Origin: Novacetimonas cocois
GTDB lineage: Bacteria; Pseudomonadota; Alphaproteobacteria; Acetobacterales; Acetobacteraceae
DNA: 64,000 nt
NCBI RefSeq assembly: GCF_003311635.1
Contig: NZ_QEXL01000004.1
Coordinates: 1-64,000 of the forward strand
Reading direction: 5' to 3'
Part shown: positions 3,129 through 39,632 of the stretch, piece by piece
Position numbering within the stretch: the stretch's first letter is position 1
Layout: each line of letters opens with the position of its first letter
Program-made: the position numbers and the translations under genes
Notes under the pieces: model-generated
What the model was told of the DNA's origin: nothing
The model's database searches: none
The model's input: the letters and a program-made list of their open reading frames with translations, nothing else

Positions 3129-3800
3129 ATGTCCCCCCTGCCCCAGTCCATCGTCGTCATCGACTATAACGGCGGCAACCTTGCCTCCGCCGCGCGGGCG
3201 CTGACACGCGCGGCGCAGGATTGCGGCATCGCGGCCAATGTCACCATCACCGCCGATCCGCGCGACGTGCTGTCGGCGGACCGCATCGTCCTGCCTGGAC
3301 AGGGGGCGTTCGCCGACTGTGCCGCCGGGCTGTCGGCCCGGCCCGGGCTGCGGGACGCCATCGTCGCCGCCACCGACGCGGGCACGCCGTTTCTGGGCAT
3401 CTGCGTCGGCATGCAGCTGATGGCGCAGCGCGGGCTTGAACATGGCGTCACGCCGGGTTTCGGATGGATCAGGGGGGATATCGGCCTGATGTCCGCGCCC
3501 GGCCTGCGCCTGCCGCAGATGGGGTGGAACCAGCTCGACTTCATTCCGGGAGCGCATCCCCTGACGGACGGGCTGGCGCGCGACGCCCATGGCTATTTCG
3601 TGCATTCCTTCGCGCTGGGCGGATATGACCCGGCAACGCTGGTGGCCACCACCGATTACGGCGGCACGGTGCCGGCCATCGTCGCGCGCGGCAACCGGGC
3701 GGGCACGCAGTTCCATGTGGAAAAAAGCCAGCAGGTGGGCCTGCGCATCCTTGCCAACTTCCTGCGCTGGACGCCCACGCCCGCCATGGATGCGACATAG
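3129..3800 (+). CDS. hisH: imidazole glycerol phosphate synthase glutamine amidotransferase subunit
   Basis: Class-I glutaminase that hydrolyses glutamine and channels ammonia to HisF in the HisHF complex. From the ATG at 3129 it has 223 residues. The nucleophile is in FLGICVGMQ (Cys92), and the catalytic His196 and Glu198 lie in QFHVEKSQ; the oxyanion-strand block LPGQGAF is present. A GTG at 3117 in frame would add four residues; neither start has a strong ribosome site. The stop is 6 nt before the GNAT-HisA frame, so it is probably co-transcribed. Confidence 0.96.
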   Translation: MSPLPQSIVVIDYNGGNLASAARALTRAAQDCGIAANVTITADPRDVLSADRIVLPGQGAFADCAAGLSARPGLRDAIVAATDAGTPFLGICVGMQLMAQRGLEHGVTPGFGWIRGDIGLMSAPGLRLPQMGWNQLDFIPGAHPLTDGLARDAHGYFVHSFALGGYDPATLVATTDYGGTVPAIVARGNRAGTQFHVEKSQQVGLRILANFLRWTPTPAMDAT

Positions 3801-29497: not shown

Positions 29498-31528
29498 ATG
29501 AACGACGATCTTTTCTCCAAGGCCGCAGCCCCGGACAAGGCCCCCCGGCGCAAATCCCGCGCGTCGGCGGAGGCCACACGGACCCAGAGTGAAGATTACG
29601 ACGCCAGCGCGATCGAGGTGCTGGAGGGGCTGGAGCCCGTCCGCCGCCGTCCGGGCATGTATATCGGCGGCACGGACGAAACCGCGTACCACCACCTCGC
29701 CTCGGAAATCCTCGACAACGCGATGGATGAGGCCGTGGCCGGCCATGCCTCGGTCATTGACGTGTCGCTGGAGGCTGGGAACTGGCTGACGATCCGCGAC
29801 AACGGGCGCGGCATCCCGGTCGATCCCCATCCCAAGTTTCCGAAGCGTTCGGCGCTGGAGGTCATCCTGACGACGCTGCACGCGGGCGGCAAGTTCTCGG
29901 GCAAGGCCTATGCCACGTCTGGTGGCCTGCATGGCGTCGGGTCATCGGTCGTCAACGCCCTGTCCGCCCGGATGGAGGTGGAAATCGCGCGCGACCGCAC
30001 GCTGTGGCAGCAGGTCTATGAACGCGGCGTTCCGCTTGCCCCGGTGCAGGAGGTCGGCCCGACACAGAACCGGCGCGGCACGCAGATCCGCTTTGTCCCC
30101 GATCCGCAGATCTTCGGGAAACTGCATTTCTCCCCCCTGCGGCTGTATCGCCTGTGCCGGTCCAAGGCGTTCCTGTTCCGTGGCGTGACCATACGCTGGT
30201 CGTGCGATCCCTCGCTCATCAAGGGCGCGGACGTCCCGGCAGAGGCGGTCCTGCACTTCCCCGGCGGGCTTGCCGACAGCCTGTGCGACGAACTGGGCAA
30301 TACCGCGCTGCTGAGCGATATCTGGGCCGGGGATGCGGACCTGCCGACGGCCGCGGACGGGGAAAGCACCGGACGCATGGAATGGGCCATCGCGTTCGTC
30401 GAACGGGGCTCGGCCGGGCTGTCATCCTATTGCAACACCATCCCCACGCCCAATGGCGGCACGCATGAAACCGGTTTCCGCACCGCCCTGACCAAGGGGC
30501 TGCGCAACTGGGGGGAGCAGCGGTCGAACAAGCGTGCGGCCGCGATCAATGCCGATGACATCATGGGCCTGATTTCGGCCAAGCTGTCGGTTTTCATCCG
30601 CGATCCGCAGTTTCAGGGCCAGACGAAGGAAAAGCTGACCAGCAGCGAGGCCAGCCGCCTGGTGGAAACGGCGCTGCGGGATCGTTTCGACCACTGGCTG
30701 GCGGGCAACCCGCCGCAGGCGGACAACCTGCTGGCGGTAGTGATCGAACGCGCGGAAGAGCGCCTGCGCCGCAAGGAAATGAAGGACACCCCGCGCAAAA
30801 GCGCCACGCGCCGCCTGCGCCTGCCGGGGAAGCTGACGGACTGCACCCGCGAAAACGCCGCCGAGACGGAGATTTTCCTTGTCGAAGGCGACTCGGCCGG
30901 GGGATCGGCCAAGCAGGCCCGCAACCGCGAAACGCAGGCCGTCCTGCCCCTGCGCGGCAAGATCCTGAACGTTGCCAGCGCCTCTGCCGAAAAGCTGCGC
31001 GCCAATCAGGAACTTCGTGATCTGGTAGAAGCACTGGGCTGTGGCATTGGCGAACGCTTCGACGCCAGCCGCCTGCGCTATGGCCGCATCATCATCATGA
31101 CGGATGCCGACGTGGACGGGGCGCATATCGCCTCCCTGCTGATGACGTTCTTCTATCGCGAACTGCCTGCGCTGATCCGCGGCGGCCATGTCTATCTGGC
31201 GCAGCCGCCGCTATATCGCCTGACGCAGGGGGGCAGGACCGTCTACGCCATGAACGACGCGGATCGTGAACGCAGGCTGAAGCGGGATTTCAAGCCCAAT
31301 GCAAAGGTCGAGGTCTCGCGCTTCAAGGGGCTGGGCGAAATGCCGCCCGCCGACCTCAAGCAGACGACCATGGACCCCAGACACCGCACGCTGCTGAAGG
31401 TCATCACCCCGATGGAGGACAGCAACCTGACGCGCGAACGTGTCGAACACCTGATGGGACGCAAGCCCGAACTGCGCTTCCAGTTCATTCAGGAACACGC
31501 GCGACAGGTCGAAAACCTCGATATCTGA
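29498..31528 (+). CDS. parE: DNA topoisomerase IV subunit B
   Basis: The 676-residue ATPase subunit of topoisomerase IV, which decatenates daughter chromosomes with ParC. GHKL ATPase motifs are EILDNAMDEA, DNGRGIPVDPHPK and GLHGVGSSVVNALS; the transducer region is typical; the Toprim domain shows LVEGDSAGGSAKQARN, IMTDADVDGAHI and RFKGLGEM. The shorter length and the SSVVNALS wording separate it from GyrB (about 800 residues). parC is not in the window. A terminator follows. Confidence 0.96.
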   Translation: MNDDLFSKAAAPDKAPRRKSRASAEATRTQSEDYDASAIEVLEGLEPVRRRPGMYIGGTDETAYHHLASEILDNAMDEAVAGHASVIDVSLEAGNWLTIRDNGRGIPVDPHPKFPKRSALEVILTTLHAGGKFSGKAYATSGGLHGVGSSVVNALSARMEVEIARDRTLWQQVYERGVPLAPVQEVGPTQNRRGTQIRFVPDPQIFGKLHFSPLRLYRLCRSKAFLFRGVTIRWSCDPSLIKGADVPAEAVLHFPGGLADSLCDELGNTALLSDIWAGDADLPTAADGESTGRMEWAIAFVERGSAGLSSYCNTIPTPNGGTHETGFRTALTKGLRNWGEQRSNKRAAAINADDIMGLISAKLSVFIRDPQFQGQTKEKLTSSEASRLVETALRDRFDHWLAGNPPQADNLLAVVIERAEERLRRKEMKDTPRKSATRRLRLPGKLTDCTRENAAETEIFLVEGDSAGGSAKQARNRETQAVLPLRGKILNVASASAEKLRANQELRDLVEALGCGIGERFDASRLRYGRIIIMTDADVDGAHIASLLMTFFYRELPALIRGGHVYLAQPPLYRLTQGGRTVYAMNDADRERRLKRDFKPNAKVEVSRFKGLGEMPPADLKQTTMDPRHRTLLKVITPMEDSNLTRERVEHLMGRKPELRFQFIQEHARQVENLDI

Positions 31529-31614
31529 CCCGACCGGCTTTTTCGGAAGGCTCGCGTTTTTTCCGAAGCCATATTTCCGGGGCCACGTTTTTGGCGCCAC
31601 GTTTCGGGGCAATG

Positions 31615-31654
31615 AAAAAGGGGAACCGCCATCTGGCAGGTTTCCCCTTTTTTT
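31615..31654. terminator. bidirectional terminator between parE and nuoM
   Basis: AAAAAGGGGAACC pairs with GGTTTCCCCTTTTT (one bulged T), followed by more T. A-run and T-run on opposite sides suit both the plus-strand parE and the minus-strand nuoM transcript. Confidence 0.88.
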
Positions 31655-31685
31655 GTGCATCCATTACTGAGTGCGAAGCACGTCG

Positions 31686-33203
31686 TCAGCCCGCCTTCAC
31701 CAGAACATCATGCGTGATGGTATCGGACGCCACCACTGGCGCGGGCTGCACCAGGCTGACCACGGTGGGGTTGAAGACCCGCAGGAACGTGCCGGGATGA
31801 ACGCCCATCCACAGCGTCACGACCGCCAGCGGAACCAGCACCGCCAGTTCCGGGCCCGTCAGGTCACGCAGCAGGGCCACCATGCCGCCCGCCGTCTGCC
31901 CGAACATCACGCGGCGATACAGCACCAGCATATAGACCGCGCCGAGGATCATGCTCGACCCGCCAAGGAAGGCCAGCCAGAACGAGACGTGGATCGCCCC
32001 CACCATCACCAGCAGTTCCCCAACGAACGCCCCGGTGCCCGGCAGGCCGATATTGGCCATGACAAACAGCATCGTCAGCGTCGCCAGGACCGGCATCTTG
32101 TGCGCCACCCCGGCAAAGGCGGAGATATTGCGCGTCTCCGCCCGCCATGACACGGCCGAGACGCAGAAGAACAGCGCGGCGATCACGATGCCATGCGACA
32201 GCATCTGGAAGATCGCGCCGTCGATTCCCTCGGGCGTCAGGGTGAACAGCCCGATGGCGATGACCCCCATGTGGGAGAAGGAGGAATAGGCGATCACGCG
32301 CTTCATGTCGGTCTGCGCCAGCGCGATGATCGCGGCATAGATGACGGCCACGACCCCCACGGTCAGGATATAGGGGGCAAAGACTCGCGCCGCGTCGGGG
32401 AACATCAGCACGCCAAAGCGCAGCAGGCCATACGCCCCGGCCTTTGACAGGACGCCCGACAGCATGACGGAAGCCGGGGTCGGGGCCTCGGTATAGGCAT
32501 CGGGCAGCCACGCATGCAGCGGGAACAGCGGCAGCTTGACCCCGAAGGCCACGATGAATCCCGCCAGCAGCCAGCCCTGCATCGCGTGGGAAAAGGTCGT
32601 GTGCTGCAGCGTCGGGATGTCGGTCGTGCCCGCGACATTCCACATCACCAGCAGCGCCACCAGCATGAACAGCGAACCGCCAAAGGTGAACAGGAAGAAC
32701 TGCAGCGAGGCCCAGACCCGCTTCGGCCCGCCCCATACGCCGATCATCAGGCTGCCCGGCAGGAGCGTCGCTTCGTAAAAGATATAGAACAGCACGAGGT
32801 CGAGCGCGGAAAACAGGCCGATCAGCGTGGTTTCCAGCAGCAGCATCGCCACCATGTAATCACGCACGCGCGTGTTCACCAGCTTCCACCCCCCGATGAT
32901 CGCAAGCGGGGTAAGGAAGGTGGACAGCAGCACGAACATCAGGCTGATGCCATCGACGCCGGCATGGTACGACACGCCAAAGGCGGAAGCCCACGGCGCG
33001 ATCTGTTCGAACTGTGGCCCGGCATGGGTGGGATCGAACTGCACCCACATCACGAGGGACAGGACGAACACGATCGCACTGGTCCACAGCGCCACCCACC
33101 GCGCGGCGGTTTCGACCGCCTGGGTCGTACCTCGCGTCAGCATGATGGCCAGAACGCCCGCCAGGGGCAGATATGTGACGAGGGAAAGCAGGATCGGGTG
33201 CAC
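31686..33203 (-). CDS. nuoM: NADH-quinone oxidoreductase subunit M, solitary
   Basis: A 505-residue antiporter-like proton-pumping subunit of complex I in the inner membrane, full length. Counting from the GTG at 33203, the channel residues are kept: Glu144 in FYIFYEATLLPG, Lys223 in FGVKLPLFPLHAWLPDA, Lys254 in LSKAGAYGLLRF and Glu396 in GTGAFVGELL. The GTG gives the family N-terminus (HPILLSLVTYLPLAG); the frame upstream is not family-like. Unusually, no other nuo gene adjoins it: mutL lies upstream and convergent parE downstream. It could serve a complex I encoded elsewhere or be a relic or paralogue. Confidence 0.9.
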   Translation of the reverse strand: MHPILLSLVTYLPLAGVLAIMLTRGTTQAVETAARWVALWTSAIVFVLSLVMWVQFDPTHAGPQFEQIAPWASAFGVSYHAGVDGISLMFVLLSTFLTPLAIIGGWKLVNTRVRDYMVAMLLLETTLIGLFSALDLVLFYIFYEATLLPGSLMIGVWGGPKRVWASLQFFLFTFGGSLFMLVALLVMWNVAGTTDIPTLQHTTFSHAMQGWLLAGFIVAFGVKLPLFPLHAWLPDAYTEAPTPASVMLSGVLSKAGAYGLLRFGVLMFPDAARVFAPYILTVGVVAVIYAAIIALAQTDMKRVIAYSSFSHMGVIAIGLFTLTPEGIDGAIFQMLSHGIVIAALFFCVSAVSWRAETRNISAFAGVAHKMPVLATLTMLFVMANIGLPGTGAFVGELLVMVGAIHVSFWLAFLGGSSMILGAVYMLVLYRRVMFGQTAGGMVALLRDLTGPELAVLVPLAVVTLWMGVHPGTFLRVFNPTVVSLVQPAPVVASDTITHDVLVKAG

Positions 33204-33356
33204 GTCAGTCTCATCGCCATGAAAGGATGGACCGACCTTAGTGGCGTTACGGAAATGAAATCCACCCGCCCGCCGCTCACGTTCTGCCGAGCGGGGGCTC
33301 ACATTCGCGTATTTTCAGCCCCCTCGCGCCCCCGTGGAACAGGGCCTGCGCCGACG

Positions 33357-35288
33357 TCAGCGACGACCGAACATCCGCTCCAGGTCAGCTTTTTCCAGCT
33401 TCAGCCACGTGGGGCGACCATGTGAACAGGTCCCGGCGCGCGGGGTTCGTTCCATGTCCCGCAGCAGGGCGTTCATTTCCTCGTGTGTAAGGCGACGGCC
33501 CGCGCGTACGCTCCCGTGACATGCCATGCGCGCGATGATCGCATCCAGCCGCCCGTCAATTGCCTGCGTCTGCGCGGGCGTCACCAGATCGTCCTCCGCC
33601 AGTTCCTCCGCCAGGTCACGCAGCATCGCCGCGGCGTCGCCTCCCCCCAGCAGCGCGGGCACCGTGCGCACCAGCACGGCATTGCCGCCAAAGGCATCAA
33701 TCTCGATTCCCAGCGTCGACAGCGTATCGGCAAAGGACAGCAGCAGTTCCGCCCGGCCCTGCGGCACGTCCACGACTTCGGGCAGCAGGAGTCGCTGGGC
33801 CCTGACCTCGCCCCCCAGATACTGCGCGCGCAGCCGTTCATGCGTCAGGCGTTCATGGGCGGCGTGCTGATCGACCAGCACAAGCTCGCCCGCCGATGTC
33901 TGCGCAAGGATATAGGTGCCCAGAACCTGCGCCACCGCCGCGCCAAGGGGGAAATCCGCCTCTGCCCCGGCATGGGGGGCGGATTCGCGTCCCCCCGGCG
34001 CCTCCGCATCGGAGTGGGCGCTGGAGTGGGCCGCCGGCTCCATGATCCGGCGTGCGGCGGGCGGCAGGTCCGCCAGCGGCAGGCGACGTTCCGCGACCCC
34101 GGCGCCCATGTCCCCGGTACCCATGTCCCCGCCACCAGCCGCCCCCGACAGTGCGGCGGAAAAGGCCGTCCCGTCCGCCTCAGGCGAAGGCCGCGACGAC
34201 GGTTCGGGCGGATACCAGATGCGCGCCCCGCCCGCGGGCCGTGACTGCAGCAGTCCGGGCCTGACGCCCGCGATGCCAGCCCCGATTCCCAACGCCCGCC
34301 CCAGTGAGCCGATCACCAGCGCCCGCACCGCCGCCGCGTCGGCGTAACGCAGTTCGGTTTTCGCCGGATGGACATTCACATCCACCTGTTCCGGCGGGAT
34401 ATGCAGCGACAGCGCCACCACCGCATGACGTCCATGTTCCATGACATTGCGATAGGCCACCCGCACCGCCGTACGCAGCACCGGGTCCACCACCGGGCGT
34501 CCGTTCACCAGCAGAAGCTGCCCGTTGGCGGTGGCGCGATGCACGGACGGGGCGCAGATATAGCCCGACAGGCGCAGGTCCCCGCGCTCCCCTTCCACCG
34601 GGATCAGGCCATCCGCCTGGCCTGCGTCCAAAATCGCCGCCGCCCGCGCGGCCGTATCCTGCGCCGGAAGGTCAAGGACCACGCGCTGATCAAACTGCAG
34701 GCGGAAGGCGACATGGGGCGCGGACAGGGCCAGGCGGCGGACGGTATTTTCGGCATGGCCCGATTCGACCCGCGCGCTCTTGAGGAATTTGCGCCGCGCG
34801 GGGGTGGCGAAAAACAGGTCCTCCACCACCACGCGGGTGCCTGCGACCCCGGCGCAGGGACGTGGCTCCTCGATCCGTCCGCCCTCCACCCGTATGGACC
34901 ATGCGGACGGCGCGCCATGGGTGCGCGACGTGACGCACAGCCGCGCGGCCGCGCCGATCGACGGCAGGGCCTCCCCCCGGAATCCCAGCGTGGAGATACG
35001 CACCAGCGTTTCGTCAGACAGTTTCGAGGTGCAATGACGCTCCACCGCAAGACGCAGGTCCTCCGGCGTCATGCCGCAGCCATCGTCGGTCACCTCGATG
35101 CGGTCGATGCCGCCGTTCTCCAGAAGGATGGAAATCCGTCGCGCGCCCGAATCCAGCGCGTTTTCCACCAGTTCCTTCAGTGCGGCGGCGGGACGCTCTA
35201 TCACCTCGCCTGCCGCGATGCGGTTGACCACCTGTTCGGACAGGCGACGGATCACGGGGCGTTCCGGGGAAGGGGAATGTTCGGTCAT
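33357..35288 (-). CDS. mutL: DNA mismatch repair protein MutL
   Basis: A 643-residue GHKL ATPase linking MutS recognition to strand incision. The N-terminal motifs are VVNRIAAGEVIERPAAALKEL, ENALDSGA, VTDDGCGM and STLGFRGEAL. The C-terminal dimerisation domain carries the endonuclease motif DQHAAHERLTHE (DQHA-X2-E-X4-E) and the metal-site blocks ACHGSVRAG and CSHGRPT, so it is the nicking type used by bacteria without MutH. The start is the ATG at 35288 (MTEHSPSPERPVIRRL); the frame extends a little upstream. A Pro/Gly/Ala-rich linker separates the domains. Confidence 0.96.
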   Translation of the reverse strand: MTEHSPSPERPVIRRLSEQVVNRIAAGEVIERPAAALKELVENALDSGARRISILLENGGIDRIEVTDDGCGMTPEDLRLAVERHCTSKLSDETLVRISTLGFRGEALPSIGAAARLCVTSRTHGAPSAWSIRVEGGRIEEPRPCAGVAGTRVVVEDLFFATPARRKFLKSARVESGHAENTVRRLALSAPHVAFRLQFDQRVVLDLPAQDTAARAAAILDAGQADGLIPVEGERGDLRLSGYICAPSVHRATANGQLLLVNGRPVVDPVLRTAVRVAYRNVMEHGRHAVVALSLHIPPEQVDVNVHPAKTELRYADAAAVRALVIGSLGRALGIGAGIAGVRPGLLQSRPAGGARIWYPPEPSSRPSPEADGTAFSAALSGAAGGGDMGTGDMGAGVAERRLPLADLPPAARRIMEPAAHSSAHSDAEAPGGRESAPHAGAEADFPLGAAVAQVLGTYILAQTSAGELVLVDQHAAHERLTHERLRAQYLGGEVRAQRLLLPEVVDVPQGRAELLLSFADTLSTLGIEIDAFGGNAVLVRTVPALLGGGDAAAMLRDLAEELAEDDLVTPAQTQAIDGRLDAIIARMACHGSVRAGRRLTHEEMNALLRDMERTPRAGTCSHGRPTWLKLEKADLERMFGRR

Positions 35289-35431
35289 GACGGCATCATG
35301 GCGGAATGGGCCGCCCATCTCCAGCACGGGGACGCACGGCGCAGGGCGGGATCGCCAGACTTTTGCAAATCAGCCCACAGGCTGCCCGCCCGGCCATGGG
35401 CGCGAGGCGCCTGCGGCCATGGCGCGCGGGA

Positions 35432-35962
35432 TTATTTCTTCTTGCTCGGCGCGCTCAGCGTCGGCGTGGCGCCCTGCGTCAGGTTGCGTCCAAGGGCCGA
35501 GTCCTCACGCAGGCGGGCATTCTCCGCCTTGGCATTGACCACGTTGCCCGCGCCGCCACCGTGCCAGAACATCAGGTGATCGACAAAGCTGGTGCCCGCC
35601 TTGCCCAGTTCCCCGCGATCGGGCGCATTGGACGCCTCGTTCGCCTCGCCCACCAGCGCGGTCTGGCCCGGGCTGTCCTGCCCGTAGGACCCCTGGAGGG
35701 CGACGTTGGGCGACAGGGTTTCCAGCGCCTGCATGCGCGGGTTGGAATCCTGCGCATGCTGGATGGCCGCGCTGTTGGGCGCGCCCAGTTCGTCCGAAGG
35801 AGGCATCGAAAGCGGCGTGCGCGTCGTGACGGTGTATTCGTCAGGCATGCTGCGTTCCAGCCCGAACGCACGCGAAACATCCCCCCCCGAGCAGCCGGTC
35901 AGGGAAAGACCGCCCGTCGCGACCAGAGCAAGGGAAAGGGTTCTGAAAGCCATGGATGCCAT
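35432..35962 (-). CDS. DUF3035 family lipoprotein
   Basis: A short protein (176 residues from the ATG at 35962) with a lipobox LSLTGC after a hydrophobic segment. The block PDEYTVTTRTPLSMPPSDELGAP is the DUF3035 signature, split here around residues 38-60. The rest is polar, with an HLMFWHGGGAG segment, and ends in Lys-Lys-Lys. The family is found after lspA in alphaproteobacteria and its function is unknown. The lspA stop is 57 nt upstream; an ATG at 35953 is an alternative start. Confidence 0.85.
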   Translation of the reverse strand: MASMAFRTLSLALVATGGLSLTGCSGGDVSRAFGLERSMPDEYTVTTRTPLSMPPSDELGAPNSAAIQHAQDSNPRMQALETLSPNVALQGSYGQDSPGQTALVGEANEASNAPDRGELGKAGTSFVDHLMFWHGGGAGNVVNAKAENARLREDSALGRNLTQGATPTLSAPSKKK

Positions 35963-36019
35963 GATTCGCCTATTACCGCCCCCGTAACGGTTCGGCAAGC
36001 GCCGCTGTGACATTCTGTC

Positions 36020-36556
36020 CTATCCCCTGTCGCGATCGAAAAGATTATCAATAATCAGCACTGCCACACCGCAGTCAATCGCCGCATCGGCAAGGTTGAA
36101 TACCGGCCATGACCATCCATAGGCATGCAGGTGCACGAAATCGACCACCGCGCCGAACTGCAGCCGGTCGATGACATTGCCGACCGCCCCCCCCATGATC
36201 GCGCCCAGCGCGCCCGCGACCCACGGGTGCGGCGTGCGTGCCGCCCATACGCCCAGCAACGCGACGATGCCCAGCGCCACGACCGAAAAGATGATGCGGC
36301 CCGCCGTCCCCACGCCACCCAGCATCCCGAAGGTGATGGCGTGGTTCCAGACCATGGTGAAATTCAGCCCCGGCATCAGGGCGACGCTCTGGCGTCCCGG
36401 CAGGTCATACCCGTGCAGGATCCAGTGCTTGGTGGCCTGATCCAGGCCAAGGACAAGGGCGAAGAACAGGACCGTCCATCCCGCCCGGCTGACCCTGCGC
36501 CGCCGTCGCGGCGCGGGATCAAGCATGCCAGATCCTGACATGACGGATAAACTCAC
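36020..36556 (-). CDS. lspA: lipoprotein signal peptidase
   Basis: Inner-membrane aspartic protease that removes prolipoprotein signal peptides. It has about four membrane segments and the two catalytic blocks, GAVGNVIDRLQFGAVVDFVH and FNLADAAIDCG, each with its aspartate; VLGLDQATKHW and NFTMVWNHAITFG are also typical. The GTG at 36556 overlaps the ileS stop (GTGA); ATG codons at 36541 and 36526 are possible starts. The downstream gene encodes a lipoprotein. The ribF-ileS-lspA order is common in proteobacteria. Confidence 0.95.
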   Translation of the reverse strand: MSLSVMSGSGMLDPAPRRRRRVSRAGWTVLFFALVLGLDQATKHWILHGYDLPGRQSVALMPGLNFTMVWNHAITFGMLGGVGTAGRIIFSVVALGIVALLGVWAARTPHPWVAGALGAIMGGAVGNVIDRLQFGAVVDFVHLHAYGWSWPVFNLADAAIDCGVAVLIIDNLFDRDRG

Positions 36557-39438
36557 GCCCCGCCCTGCACCACGTCATTGCATCGCAGGCACAGCTGCGG
36601 ATGCGCGGCGATGGTTCCCACTTCCTCAAGCACCTTCCAGCAGCGCGCGCACTTGTGGCCCGACGCGGCGCGGACGACGGGACCGCCATGCGGCGTGCCC
36701 TGCACCCCGTCCTGCACCCCGTCCGGCTGGTCCAGATAGATCGGGGCGCTGCCCGCCTCGATCGAAACATCCACCTGCGAGACGATCGCCAGTTCGCACC
36801 AGTCCACCTCGCCGAAAACGCTGGCCTCCTGCTCCGCCAGCGGCAGCGTGACCGCCGCCTGCAGCGACGACCCCACGATGCCGTTGCGACGCGCGGTCTC
36901 GATTTCGGTGGTGATGACGCGCCGCACGCCACGCAGCATGGCCCAGCGATCCTCCAGCGCGGGCTGGTGCCACTGCGCCGGGATGTCGGGGAAAGGCTGC
37001 AGATGGATGCTCTGCGTATTGCCCGGCCGCGCCAGCCACGCCTCCTCCGCCGTGAAGACCAGAACGGGGGCCAGCCACGCGCACAGGCAGCGGTGCAGAT
37101 GGTCCAGAACCGTGCGCGCCGCCCGGCGCTTGGGGCTGGCGGGACCATCGCAGTAGATCGCGTCCTTGCGCACGTCGAAATAGAACGCCGAAAGGTCGGC
37201 AGCGCAGAAGCCGTGCAGCGCGGGATAGACCCCCACCCATTCATGCGTTTCCACCGCGCGCGCCACCAGCCCGCCAAGTTCGCCCAGACGGTGCAGCACC
37301 CAGCGTTCCAGTTCCGGCAGGTCGTCATAGGCGACCCGCTCCTCCTCGGAGAAACCATCGAGCGCGCCGAGCAGCCAGCGCAGCGTATTGCGCAGACGGC
37401 GGTAAAGCTCACCCTGCTGCTTGAGGATGTCCTTGCCGATGCGCAGGTCCTCGTTGGTGTCGGAATTCATCACCCACAGACGCAGGATATCGGCGCCGAG
37501 CGAGTCGTTGACATCCTGCGGGGCGATGACATTGCCCAGCGACTTGGACATCTTGCGCCCCTGCTCATCAAGGACGAAGCCATTGGTCACCAGCGTGCGG
37601 AACGGTGCCACGCCCTTCGTTCCCACGCTTTCGAGCAGCGAGGACTGGAACCAGCCGCGATGCTGGTCCGAACCTTCGAGGTAGACATCGGCGGGGAACG
37701 GCAGCCCGTCATGGCCCAGCACGAAGGCATGGGTCGAACCGCTTTCGAACCACACGTCCACGATGTCGAATACCTGTTCGTAATCTTCCGGGTCGCGCCC
37801 TTCGCCCAGGAAACGCCCCGCCGGGGAGGAATACCAAGCATCCGCCCCCTCGGCCGCGAAGGCATCGACGATGCGCTTCATCACCGCCGGGTCGCGCAGG
37901 ACCTCGCCCGTGCGCTTTTCAACGAACACCGCGATCGGCACGCCCCATGCGCGCTGGCGGCTGATGCACCAGTCGGGACGCCCCTCCACCATGGAGGTCA
38001 GGCGGTTGCGCGACTGCGCGGGGACGAACGTCACCTTCTCCAGCGCCTCGAGCGCGCGCTGGCGCAGGGAGCCTTCGCCATCCATGCGGATGAACCACTG
38101 CGGCGTCGCGCGATAGATGATCGGCGCGCGCGACCGCCATGAATGGGGATAGGAATGGACCATGACCGTCCGCGCCACCAGCCCCGCCGGGGCCTGTCCC
38201 GCGGCAGCGGCATGGCGCATCACATCGGCCAGCGCGGCGCAGACCGGCTCCGCCGCCCTGAAGACATGCACACCCGCGAACAGCGGAACCCATTCGGCAT
38301 AGCGGCCGTCATCCATCACCAGTTCGGTGATTTCCAGCCCGTACTGGCGGCCAAGGCTGAAATCGTCCTCGCCATGGGCCGGGGCGGTATGGACCAGCCC
38401 GGTGCCCGCTTCGGTCGTGACATGTTCGCCCGGCAGCATCGGCACGTCGAAATCATATCCCTGCCCCCGCAGCGGATGGGCGCAGACCGCGCCCTTCAGC
38501 GCGCGGCCCGGCAGGGTGTAAAGCACGTGATGCGCGCTGATGCCCGCCGCGGCGCAGAACGGCTCGATCAGGTCCTCCGCCACCAGGACCTTCGATTCAG
38601 GCTCCAGCAGGGCGCCGTCGGTCACGTCATCCACCCGCACCACGGCATAGGTGATGTCCGGGCCATAGGCGATGGCGCGGTTGGCGGGGATCGTCCACGG
38701 CGTCGTGGTCCAGATGACCGCCGCCACGTCCTCCAGCGCATGGGCCGGGGTGGGGTCGTGGATGATGGGAAAGGCCACGTGGATGGCCGTGGATTCGTGA
38801 TCGCGGTATTCGATCTCCGCCTCCGCCAGGGCGGTCTTTTCAACCGGACTCCACATGACGGGGCGCAGGCCGCGATACAGCAGCCCGTTGAGCAGGAATT
38901 TCCCGATTTCGCCCACGATCGCCGCCTCGGACGAAAAATCCATCGTGGCGTAACGTCGCGCCCATTCCGCCTGCACGCCGAGGCGGCGGAATTCGGCGGC
39001 CTGGATATCCAGCCATTTCTGGGCATAGGCACGGCATTCGGCACGGAACTGCAGGACGGGAACGCCATCCTTGTCCTGTCCGCGCTTGCGGTATTCCTCT
39101 TCGATCTTCCATTCGATCGGCAGGCCGTGACAGTCCCAGCCGGGAATGTAATGCACGCCATAACCCGACATGCGGTGCGCGCGGTTGATGACGTCCTTGA
39201 GGATCTTGTTCAGGGCATGACCGATATGCAGGTGGCCGTTGGCATAGGGCGGGCCATCATGCAGCATGAAGACCTGCCGCCCCTGCGACTGCTGGAACAG
39301 GCTGTCGTCGAGCCCTTCCGCGGCCCAGCGCTCCAGCATCTCGGGCTCCCGTTTCGGCAGGCTGCCGCGCATGGGAAAGGAGGTGGTGGGAAGGAACACC
39401 GTCTCCCGATAGAGATCCTGTGGTTTTGACTCGGTCAT
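36553..39438 (-). CDS. ileS: isoleucyl-tRNA synthetase
   Basis: Class-I aminoacyl-tRNA synthetase of 961 residues. HIGH is found in NGHLHIGHALNK and KMSKS in GRKMSKSLGN; the editing domain motif TWDCHG-like region reads PGWDCHGLPIEW; the C-terminal zinc finger uses CARCWK and CLRCND. The start is ATG 39438 (MTESKPQDLYRETVFLP), since the frame beyond it is not family-like. It is encoded between ribF and lspA on the minus strand. Confidence 0.97.
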   Translation of the reverse strand: MTESKPQDLYRETVFLPTTSFPMRGSLPKREPEMLERWAAEGLDDSLFQQSQGRQVFMLHDGPPYANGHLHIGHALNKILKDVINRAHRMSGYGVHYIPGWDCHGLPIEWKIEEEYRKRGQDKDGVPVLQFRAECRAYAQKWLDIQAAEFRRLGVQAEWARRYATMDFSSEAAIVGEIGKFLLNGLLYRGLRPVMWSPVEKTALAEAEIEYRDHESTAIHVAFPIIHDPTPAHALEDVAAVIWTTTPWTIPANRAIAYGPDITYAVVRVDDVTDGALLEPESKVLVAEDLIEPFCAAAGISAHHVLYTLPGRALKGAVCAHPLRGQGYDFDVPMLPGEHVTTEAGTGLVHTAPAHGEDDFSLGRQYGLEITELVMDDGRYAEWVPLFAGVHVFRAAEPVCAALADVMRHAAAAGQAPAGLVARTVMVHSYPHSWRSRAPIIYRATPQWFIRMDGEGSLRQRALEALEKVTFVPAQSRNRLTSMVEGRPDWCISRQRAWGVPIAVFVEKRTGEVLRDPAVMKRIVDAFAAEGADAWYSSPAGRFLGEGRDPEDYEQVFDIVDVWFESGSTHAFVLGHDGLPFPADVYLEGSDQHRGWFQSSLLESVGTKGVAPFRTLVTNGFVLDEQGRKMSKSLGNVIAPQDVNDSLGADILRLWVMNSDTNEDLRIGKDILKQQGELYRRLRNTLRWLLGALDGFSEEERVAYDDLPELERWVLHRLGELGGLVARAVETHEWVGVYPALHGFCAADLSAFYFDVRKDAIYCDGPASPKRRAARTVLDHLHRCLCAWLAPVLVFTAEEAWLARPGNTQSIHLQPFPDIPAQWHQPALEDRWAMLRGVRRVITTEIETARRNGIVGSSLQAAVTLPLAEQEASVFGEVDWCELAIVSQVDVSIEAGSAPIYLDQPDGVQDGVQGTPHGGPVVRAASGHKCARCWKVLEEVGTIAAHPQLCLRCNDVVQGGA

Positions 39439-39632
39439 GACCCTGTTTTCTGACTGCTTGATCCAAAGAAACATGGAGGGACGGGACATGCCCCGTACAA
39501 CCGCAACGCAACCTTATGGGGAGGCGGCGGCCCCGCGGTCAAGCTTTCGCGACGCGCCCGCCCGGCGTTCGCTTTCCCCCGACCGTCCTGCCGACAGCCC
39601 TGCCTGCCGCTTTTCCTGCCTGTCCCGGCCAC

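Follow-up and report, generated by a model that had tools for sequence, protein, structure and literature searches.

Inspection of the window, by which we mean the whole stretch of 64,000 nucleotides analyzed here, revealed a minus-strand nuoM gene (G000:C34 in the source genome) whose frame is open from a GTG codon at 33203 to a stop at 31686, over 505 codons. Its surroundings contain the following features.

29498..31528, plus strand: parE, the convergent downstream neighbor of nuoM (TIGR01055, 738.1 bits; synteny)
31686..33203, minus strand: nuoM, displaced and divergent in form (termed M-prime below), 505 aa, GTG start
33277..33291, minus strand: conserved 15-base intergenic element CTCGGCAGAACGTGA / CTCKGCAKAAYGTGA, between mutL and nuoM
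33357..35327, minus strand: mutL, the upstream neighbor of nuoM (NF000953, 713.6 bits; synteny)
35432..36013, minus strand: gene for a DUF3035 protein, a conserved neighbor (PF11233; synteny)
36020..36556, minus strand: lspA, a conserved neighbor (NF011352, 258.6 bits; synteny)
36553..39489, minus strand: ileS, a conserved neighbor (TIGR00392, 810.3 bits; synteny)

The product passes the subfamily model TIGR01972 (NDH_I_M) with 548.8 bits against a cut-off of 263.8, and falls 2.4 bits short of the narrower equivalog NF004499 (582.6 bits, cut-off 585); together with the open frame of 505 residues, this bears out the first-pass annotation of an intact nuoM beside mutL and a convergent parE. All 13 relatives aligned with the window sequence share the GTG start. 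By alignment, E144, K223, K254 and E396, which the same annotation had reported as preserved, correspond to E144, K234, K265 and E407 of E. coli K-12 NuoM, and all four proton-path residues are kept in 33 of 33 displaced and 60 of 60 operon-encoded NuoMs compared, as are H241, H322 and H348. The AlphaFold2 model of the displaced NuoM (pLDDT 84.9) has an antiporter-like fold and matches NuoM of Paracoccus denitrificans (8qby chain M) with a TM-score of 0.93. This chain is the best solved sequence match of the window protein (450.6 bits); it is 46% identical over the structural alignment, its four proton-path residues align with those of the window NuoM, and one difference is the location of the window gene outside the nuo operon. 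The nearest named relative among the matches listed is from Gluconacetobacter entanii LTH 4560 (95%). Comparison with three congeners gave dN/dS values of 0.093, 0.071 and 0.090 for nuoM, near those of NuoL (0.081, 0.067 and 0.074) and about twice those of NuoN (0.041, 0.035 and 0.044), confirming the earlier view that the gene is under selection.

A whole-genome search with PF00361 led to seven places. On contig C1, an alpha-type operon is arranged in the order lon, tRNA-Val, tRNA-Asp, nuoA, B, C, D, E, F, G, H, I, J, K, L, N, birA, with nuoI assigned through its 4Fe-4S domains and its place. It encodes 13 subunits; nuoM alone is missing, from the slot between nuoL and nuoN, and nuoN starts 24 bases past the stop of nuoL. 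A complete second, E. coli-like nuo operon with a fused nuoCD and its own nuoL-nuoM-nuoN lies on contig C45 (G000:C45:53000-72500, L009). The window NuoM groups with alphaproteobacterial NuoMs, apart from the C45 type (100% SH-aLRT), and is the one alpha-type NuoM of its genome. The proposed count of nuo genes and nuoM copies has accordingly returned one operon without nuoM, on C1, and one with its own nuoM, on C45, and the C1 alpha-type operon, which lacks nuoM only, supports the suggestion of a complex I encoded elsewhere to which the gene adds the last subunit. All four genomes of the genus combine a nuoM-less operon with one displaced nuoM, and in the three congeners we found neither a second nuo operon nor a nuoM other than the displaced one. 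The C45 operon is an instance of the additional, E. coli-like nuo operon that some acetic acid bacteria have, and differs from the arrangement described here in that its nuoM is in place and encodes a NuoM of a distant clade.

An isolated E. coli-like nuoL-nuoM pair was observed away from the nuo operon in G025 (L193:3147-6532), G028 (L195:3782-7068) and G051 (L197:3939-7246), three genera that also have the E. coli-like operon; no other nuo gene was matched in the 7-11 kb around these pairs.

The 15-base element lies 74 bases upstream of the nuoM start and is conserved in 14 sequences from four genera, those of Acetobacter showing some changes. The pattern alone has 1 match in the window at up to 2 mismatches versus 0.52 expected, which is not significant. 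The element is a possible candidate for a promoter or regulator site. It was not found beyond chance near nuoA in the C1 operon stretch searched, and co-regulation of nuoM and nuoA via a shared site was rejected on this account. A simple scan of positions 31400-33500 found no sigma-70-like promoter, and one terminator-like site, no more than chance.

A search of named genomes returned at least 80 loci, 26 of them from Acetobacter, Gluconacetobacter or Komagataeibacter. Among the matches listed, and for the proteins sought, mutL is the nearest upstream marker of nuoM in all 26 of these loci, at a distance of 120 to 2055 bases, and parE is the next downstream marker, and convergent, in 23 (it was not found in L015, L019 and L022). 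The other relatives among the matches listed have nuoN directly downstream of nuoM in 54 of 54 cases and nuoL next upstream in 52 of 54. With PF00361, 25 of 26 named acetic acid genomes and six genomes of further genera (G004, G012, G016, G043, G045 and G059) show nuoL and nuoN side by side plus a single nuoM on its own; twelve more genomes match by their PF00361 hit pattern, bringing the total to at least about 46 distinct genomes that pair a displaced nuoM with a nuoM-less operon. Distinctness was judged by equal coordinates (G063 = G001, G033 = G085, G151 = G073). We read the junction of nuoL and nuoN at 32 loci, from 31 distinct genomes, and none of the 32 contains a NuoM match in the 25-99 bases between the nuoL and nuoN matches; the remaining 15 genomes are assigned by hit pattern alone. 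Outside the acetic acid bacteria, mutL and parE are on different draft contigs in all of seven relatives (G010, G023, G026, G034, G046, G060 and G061). Six of these have nuoM between nuoL and nuoN; the G010 contig breaks off within nuoM, before nuoN is reached. Two genomes were left out of the counts: G037, which is 82% complete and has one weak match that was not placed, and G015, which has no nuo match and whose MutL falls outside the acetic acid bacteria. The displacement of nuoM in acetic acid bacteria is old.

The site itself varies in detail. An EamA-like transporter gene (L020:11673-12623, L192:7778-8647, L165:3438-4289) lies between nuoM and parE in 12 of the 26 named loci among the matches listed, and recurs in the intervals without nuoM described below; none was found in the window, where the gap between nuoM and parE is 157 bases. 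In G059 (L133:3483-10765) and G208 (L189:7030-11133), 4 to 7 kb of other sequence separates mutL from nuoM, indicating a looser neighborhood in some genera.

Conversely, the eight acetic acid genera that lack the alpha-type operon all lack the displaced nuoM. Six of them have only E. coli-like NuoL/NuoM/NuoN (all nuoM genes having been read), and the other two, G035 and G057, gave no PF00361 match at E 1e-3. In five of the eight, mutL and parE are still convergent neighbors, 0.9 to 2.6 kb apart, and tblastn at E 1e-3 detected no trace of nuoM in this interval, which harbors an EamA-like gene in 5/5 and a YfdX-like gene in 4/5. Comparison of the mutL-parE interval among relatives, as suggested at the outset, finds the displaced nuoM there as a family-wide arrangement and no trace of it in five genera without the alpha-type operon. 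The eight genera form one clade inside the acetic acid bacteria (MutL tree, 100/99), and their joint loss counts as a single phylogenetic event, to be read as a clean case rather than as a statistic; with 2 pairs available, an independent-pairs test is too small to be significant. Patristic distances of NuoM correlate with those of NuoL (0.90) and NuoN (0.86), compared with 0.95 between NuoL and NuoN.

We hold it to be almost certain that the gene encodes NuoM of the cell's alpha-type complex I, with the 13 other subunits supplied by the C1 operon. The displaced gene is inherited together with the nuoM-less operon, corresponds to its missing slot, retains the proton-path residues and is maintained by purifying selection. 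Assembly into the complex and pumping are expected by analogy with the family: the ND4-like NuoM would be made in trans from behind mutL, would insert in the membrane and take its place in the membrane arm of complex I, where the E144/K223/K254/E396 relay would move protons. The term orphan used in the first-pass annotation fits the gene by position and not by function; the function is ordinary and the history of the gene is unusual. Counted against this assignment is G084 (L032, a draft of Acetobacter malorum DsW_057), which has the displaced nuoM and no nuo operon. A 20-kb query spanning lon, the operon and birA of a near relative has no match in this draft and does find the region in G081. 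Since the operon flanks lon and birA are missing as well, the absence is probably an assembly gap.

Two other functions were weighed. The complete C45 operon, with its own nuoL-nuoM-nuoN, could by itself provide the working complex I and leave the window nuoM redundant, and a complete nuo operon with its own nuoM, together with decay of this copy, was what the first-pass annotation had set as the refutation of its reading. The operon exists; decay is contradicted by dN/dS values of about 0.07-0.09. The C45 NuoM is also separated from the alpha-type NuoMs by a 100% branch, and the three congeners keep the displaced nuoM with no second operon seen. A redundant or decaying copy was rejected on the congeners and on dN/dS, and we regard it as highly improbable. 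Equally remote, in our judgment, is the reading of the displaced NuoM as the antiporter-like subunit of a hydrogenase-4-like cluster or as a free-standing Mrp-like transporter, although NuoM and MrpD are homologous and such a cluster, with a weakly matching antiporter-like subunit of its own, exists on C1:

G000:C1:195400-201500 (about), L179:7419-13547: hydrogenase-4-like cluster

The distribution of the cluster led to its rejection as a partner, because its large subunit occurs in all eight genera that lack the displaced gene, and G012 (94% complete), a carrier of that gene, gave no match to it at E 1e-10. Among the 25 families listed, moreover, the displaced NuoM scores 548.8 bits as NuoM versus at most 171.3 for an Na+/H+ antiporter D model, where the Mrp-type subunit D cut-offs are 470 and more, and no mrp operon surrounds the gene, its neighbors being mutL and parE. 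The non-complex-I ion transporter offered as an alternative in the first-pass annotation accordingly finds no support: acetic acid lineages without the alpha-type operon do not have the gene, and the gene does not track the hydrogenase-4-like cluster, the only other candidate partner found.

The cluster on C1 is itself weakly defined, in that its NuoD/HyfG-like large subunit matches PF00346 with 54 bits and the nickel-hydrogenase model below the cut-off, and its antiporter-like subunit barely passes PF00361. The large subunit was matched in 26 of the 28 Acetobacteraceae genomes searched; the match in G026 (3.5e-11) is probably to its nuoD.

The displaced NuoM is unusually divergent. With G026 excluded and the topology fixed to that of NuoL+NuoN, the stem branch of the acetic acid bacteria measures 0.767 for NuoM, 0.205 for NuoL and 0.180 for NuoN, about four times as long for NuoM as for either of the other two. 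In 15 column bootstraps under a simpler model, the ranges are 0.538-0.721 for NuoM, 0.146-0.262 for NuoL and 0.107-0.194 for NuoN, and that of NuoM overlaps neither. Elsewhere, the ratio of total branch length of NuoM to NuoL is 0.62 for operon copies and 0.84 inside the acetic acid bacteria. The two groups differ at 18 sites, where one residue is shared by at least 94% of the displaced NuoMs and another by at least 94% of the operon NuoMs; the displaced-type residues include Y143, F227, Y237, S249 and S253. G026 (L105:2893-4335) has an operon-encoded NuoM on a long branch with 7 of the 18 displaced-type residues, which joined M-prime in trees. The rate test was run without it because of this long branch and because its MutL groups with that of G046.

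Two genomes of one genus, G128 and G184, harbor a nuo operon that includes nuoL-nuoM-nuoN and, elsewhere, a second NuoM of the displaced type:

L181:6628-8160: second NuoM of G128
L183:6296-7732: second NuoM of G184

In G128 the second gene lies between what we take to be an epimerase-like and a gluQRS-like gene. The second copies and 19 displaced NuoMs form one clade (100/100); at the 18 sites, the second NuoM of G128 has 12 displaced-type and 4 operon-type residues, versus 1 and 17 in its operon NuoM. Both copies are under purifying selection in this genus (dN/dS 0.034 and 0.020). These genomes, which we counted against the assignment to the alpha-type complex, indicate that the displaced form can exist beside a complete operon. 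The presence of two NuoM genes resembles the '2M' complex I, which has two NuoM subunits per complex and an extended NuoL. The differences are that the second NuoM gene of G128 and G184 is not in the operon and that the NuoL of G128, with 646 aa, aligns over positions 1-643 of the query without the long insertion.

How the two forms arose can be read in two ways. One, to which we give an even chance, is that the single operon nuoM was relocated next to mutL and afterward changed rapidly, G128 and G184 having received M-prime later by transfer. Duplication within the G128/G184 lineage was rejected, the second copies not joining their own operon copy (AU p 8e-61), and this agrees with later transfer. 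When the acetic acid sequences and G026 are removed, the second copies fall beside L103/G108, to which the acetic acid bacteria are closest in NuoL and NuoN, with modest support (84/58, 90/91), as a transfer from the acetic acid stem would give; an older duplication may also account for them. The M-prime clade including the second copies is compatible with a place beside L103/G108 (AU p 0.434, G026 left out), the place that NuoL and NuoN give the acetic acid bacteria; when the second copies are left aside and only the displaced NuoMs are grouped with L103 and G108, the AU p of 1e-6 is uninformative because that arrangement splits the M-prime clade. Against a moved copy stand the coexistence of the two forms under purifying selection in G128 and G184, which shows a two-copy phase to be workable, and the moderate support (93/90; 66/87) for the displaced NuoMs as a clade that excludes the second copies.

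The other reading, which we put forward tentatively and with some doubt, is that M-prime displaced the operon NuoM when the acetic acid bacteria arose, with G128 and G184 keeping both isoforms, in which case the pumping module may be exchangeable and the forms may differ in pumping or acid-stress properties. Movement of the operon copy followed by fast change is slightly favored over displacement by a diverged second copy. Genes for complex I subunits usually stay together, and a count of complete nuo clusters would mark these bacteria as incomplete unless the distant nuoM were added. Should the isoform view be true, acetic acid bacteria, living at low pH, would rely on a specially evolved pump subunit in complex I, and the two-form genomes would offer a direct test of pumping-module replacement.

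Parts of this picture are already in print. In the available parts of two Acetobacter pasteurianus papers, nuoM of strain SKU1108 (APT_00690) is listed apart from a nuoA-nuoN operon (PMC5158111) and, for strain 386B, locus APA386B_2247, not named there, is listed with complex I apart from the operon (PMC3751514). Both are probably the same gene as the displaced nuoM; the missing slot, the family-wide pattern and the divergence are not discussed in those parts of either paper. On the basis of nuoHIJKLN, the accessible text of an Asaia study reports that acetic acid bacteria commonly have one nuo operon, that Ga. diazotrophicus has a second, and that losses occurred (PMC4596401). In the open-license literature, as far as its texts were accessible, we found no paper discussing displacement or divergence of the acetic acid bacterial nuoM. 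The divergent NuoM form and the genomes that hold both forms are new.

Lastly, the accessible part of a label-free proteomics report on A. pasteurianus lists NuoM as fig_HN.1610 and the operon under numbers 3342-3354 (PMC10742644), a numbering by which fig_HN.1610 would be the homologous gene behind mutL. The ratios given there are 0.62, 0.33, 2.16 and 1.78 for NuoM, 0.93, 0.31, 2.22 and 2.12 for NuoN, and 0.39, 0.24, 2.72 and 2.05 for NuoB, and show that NuoM moves with the operon subunits.
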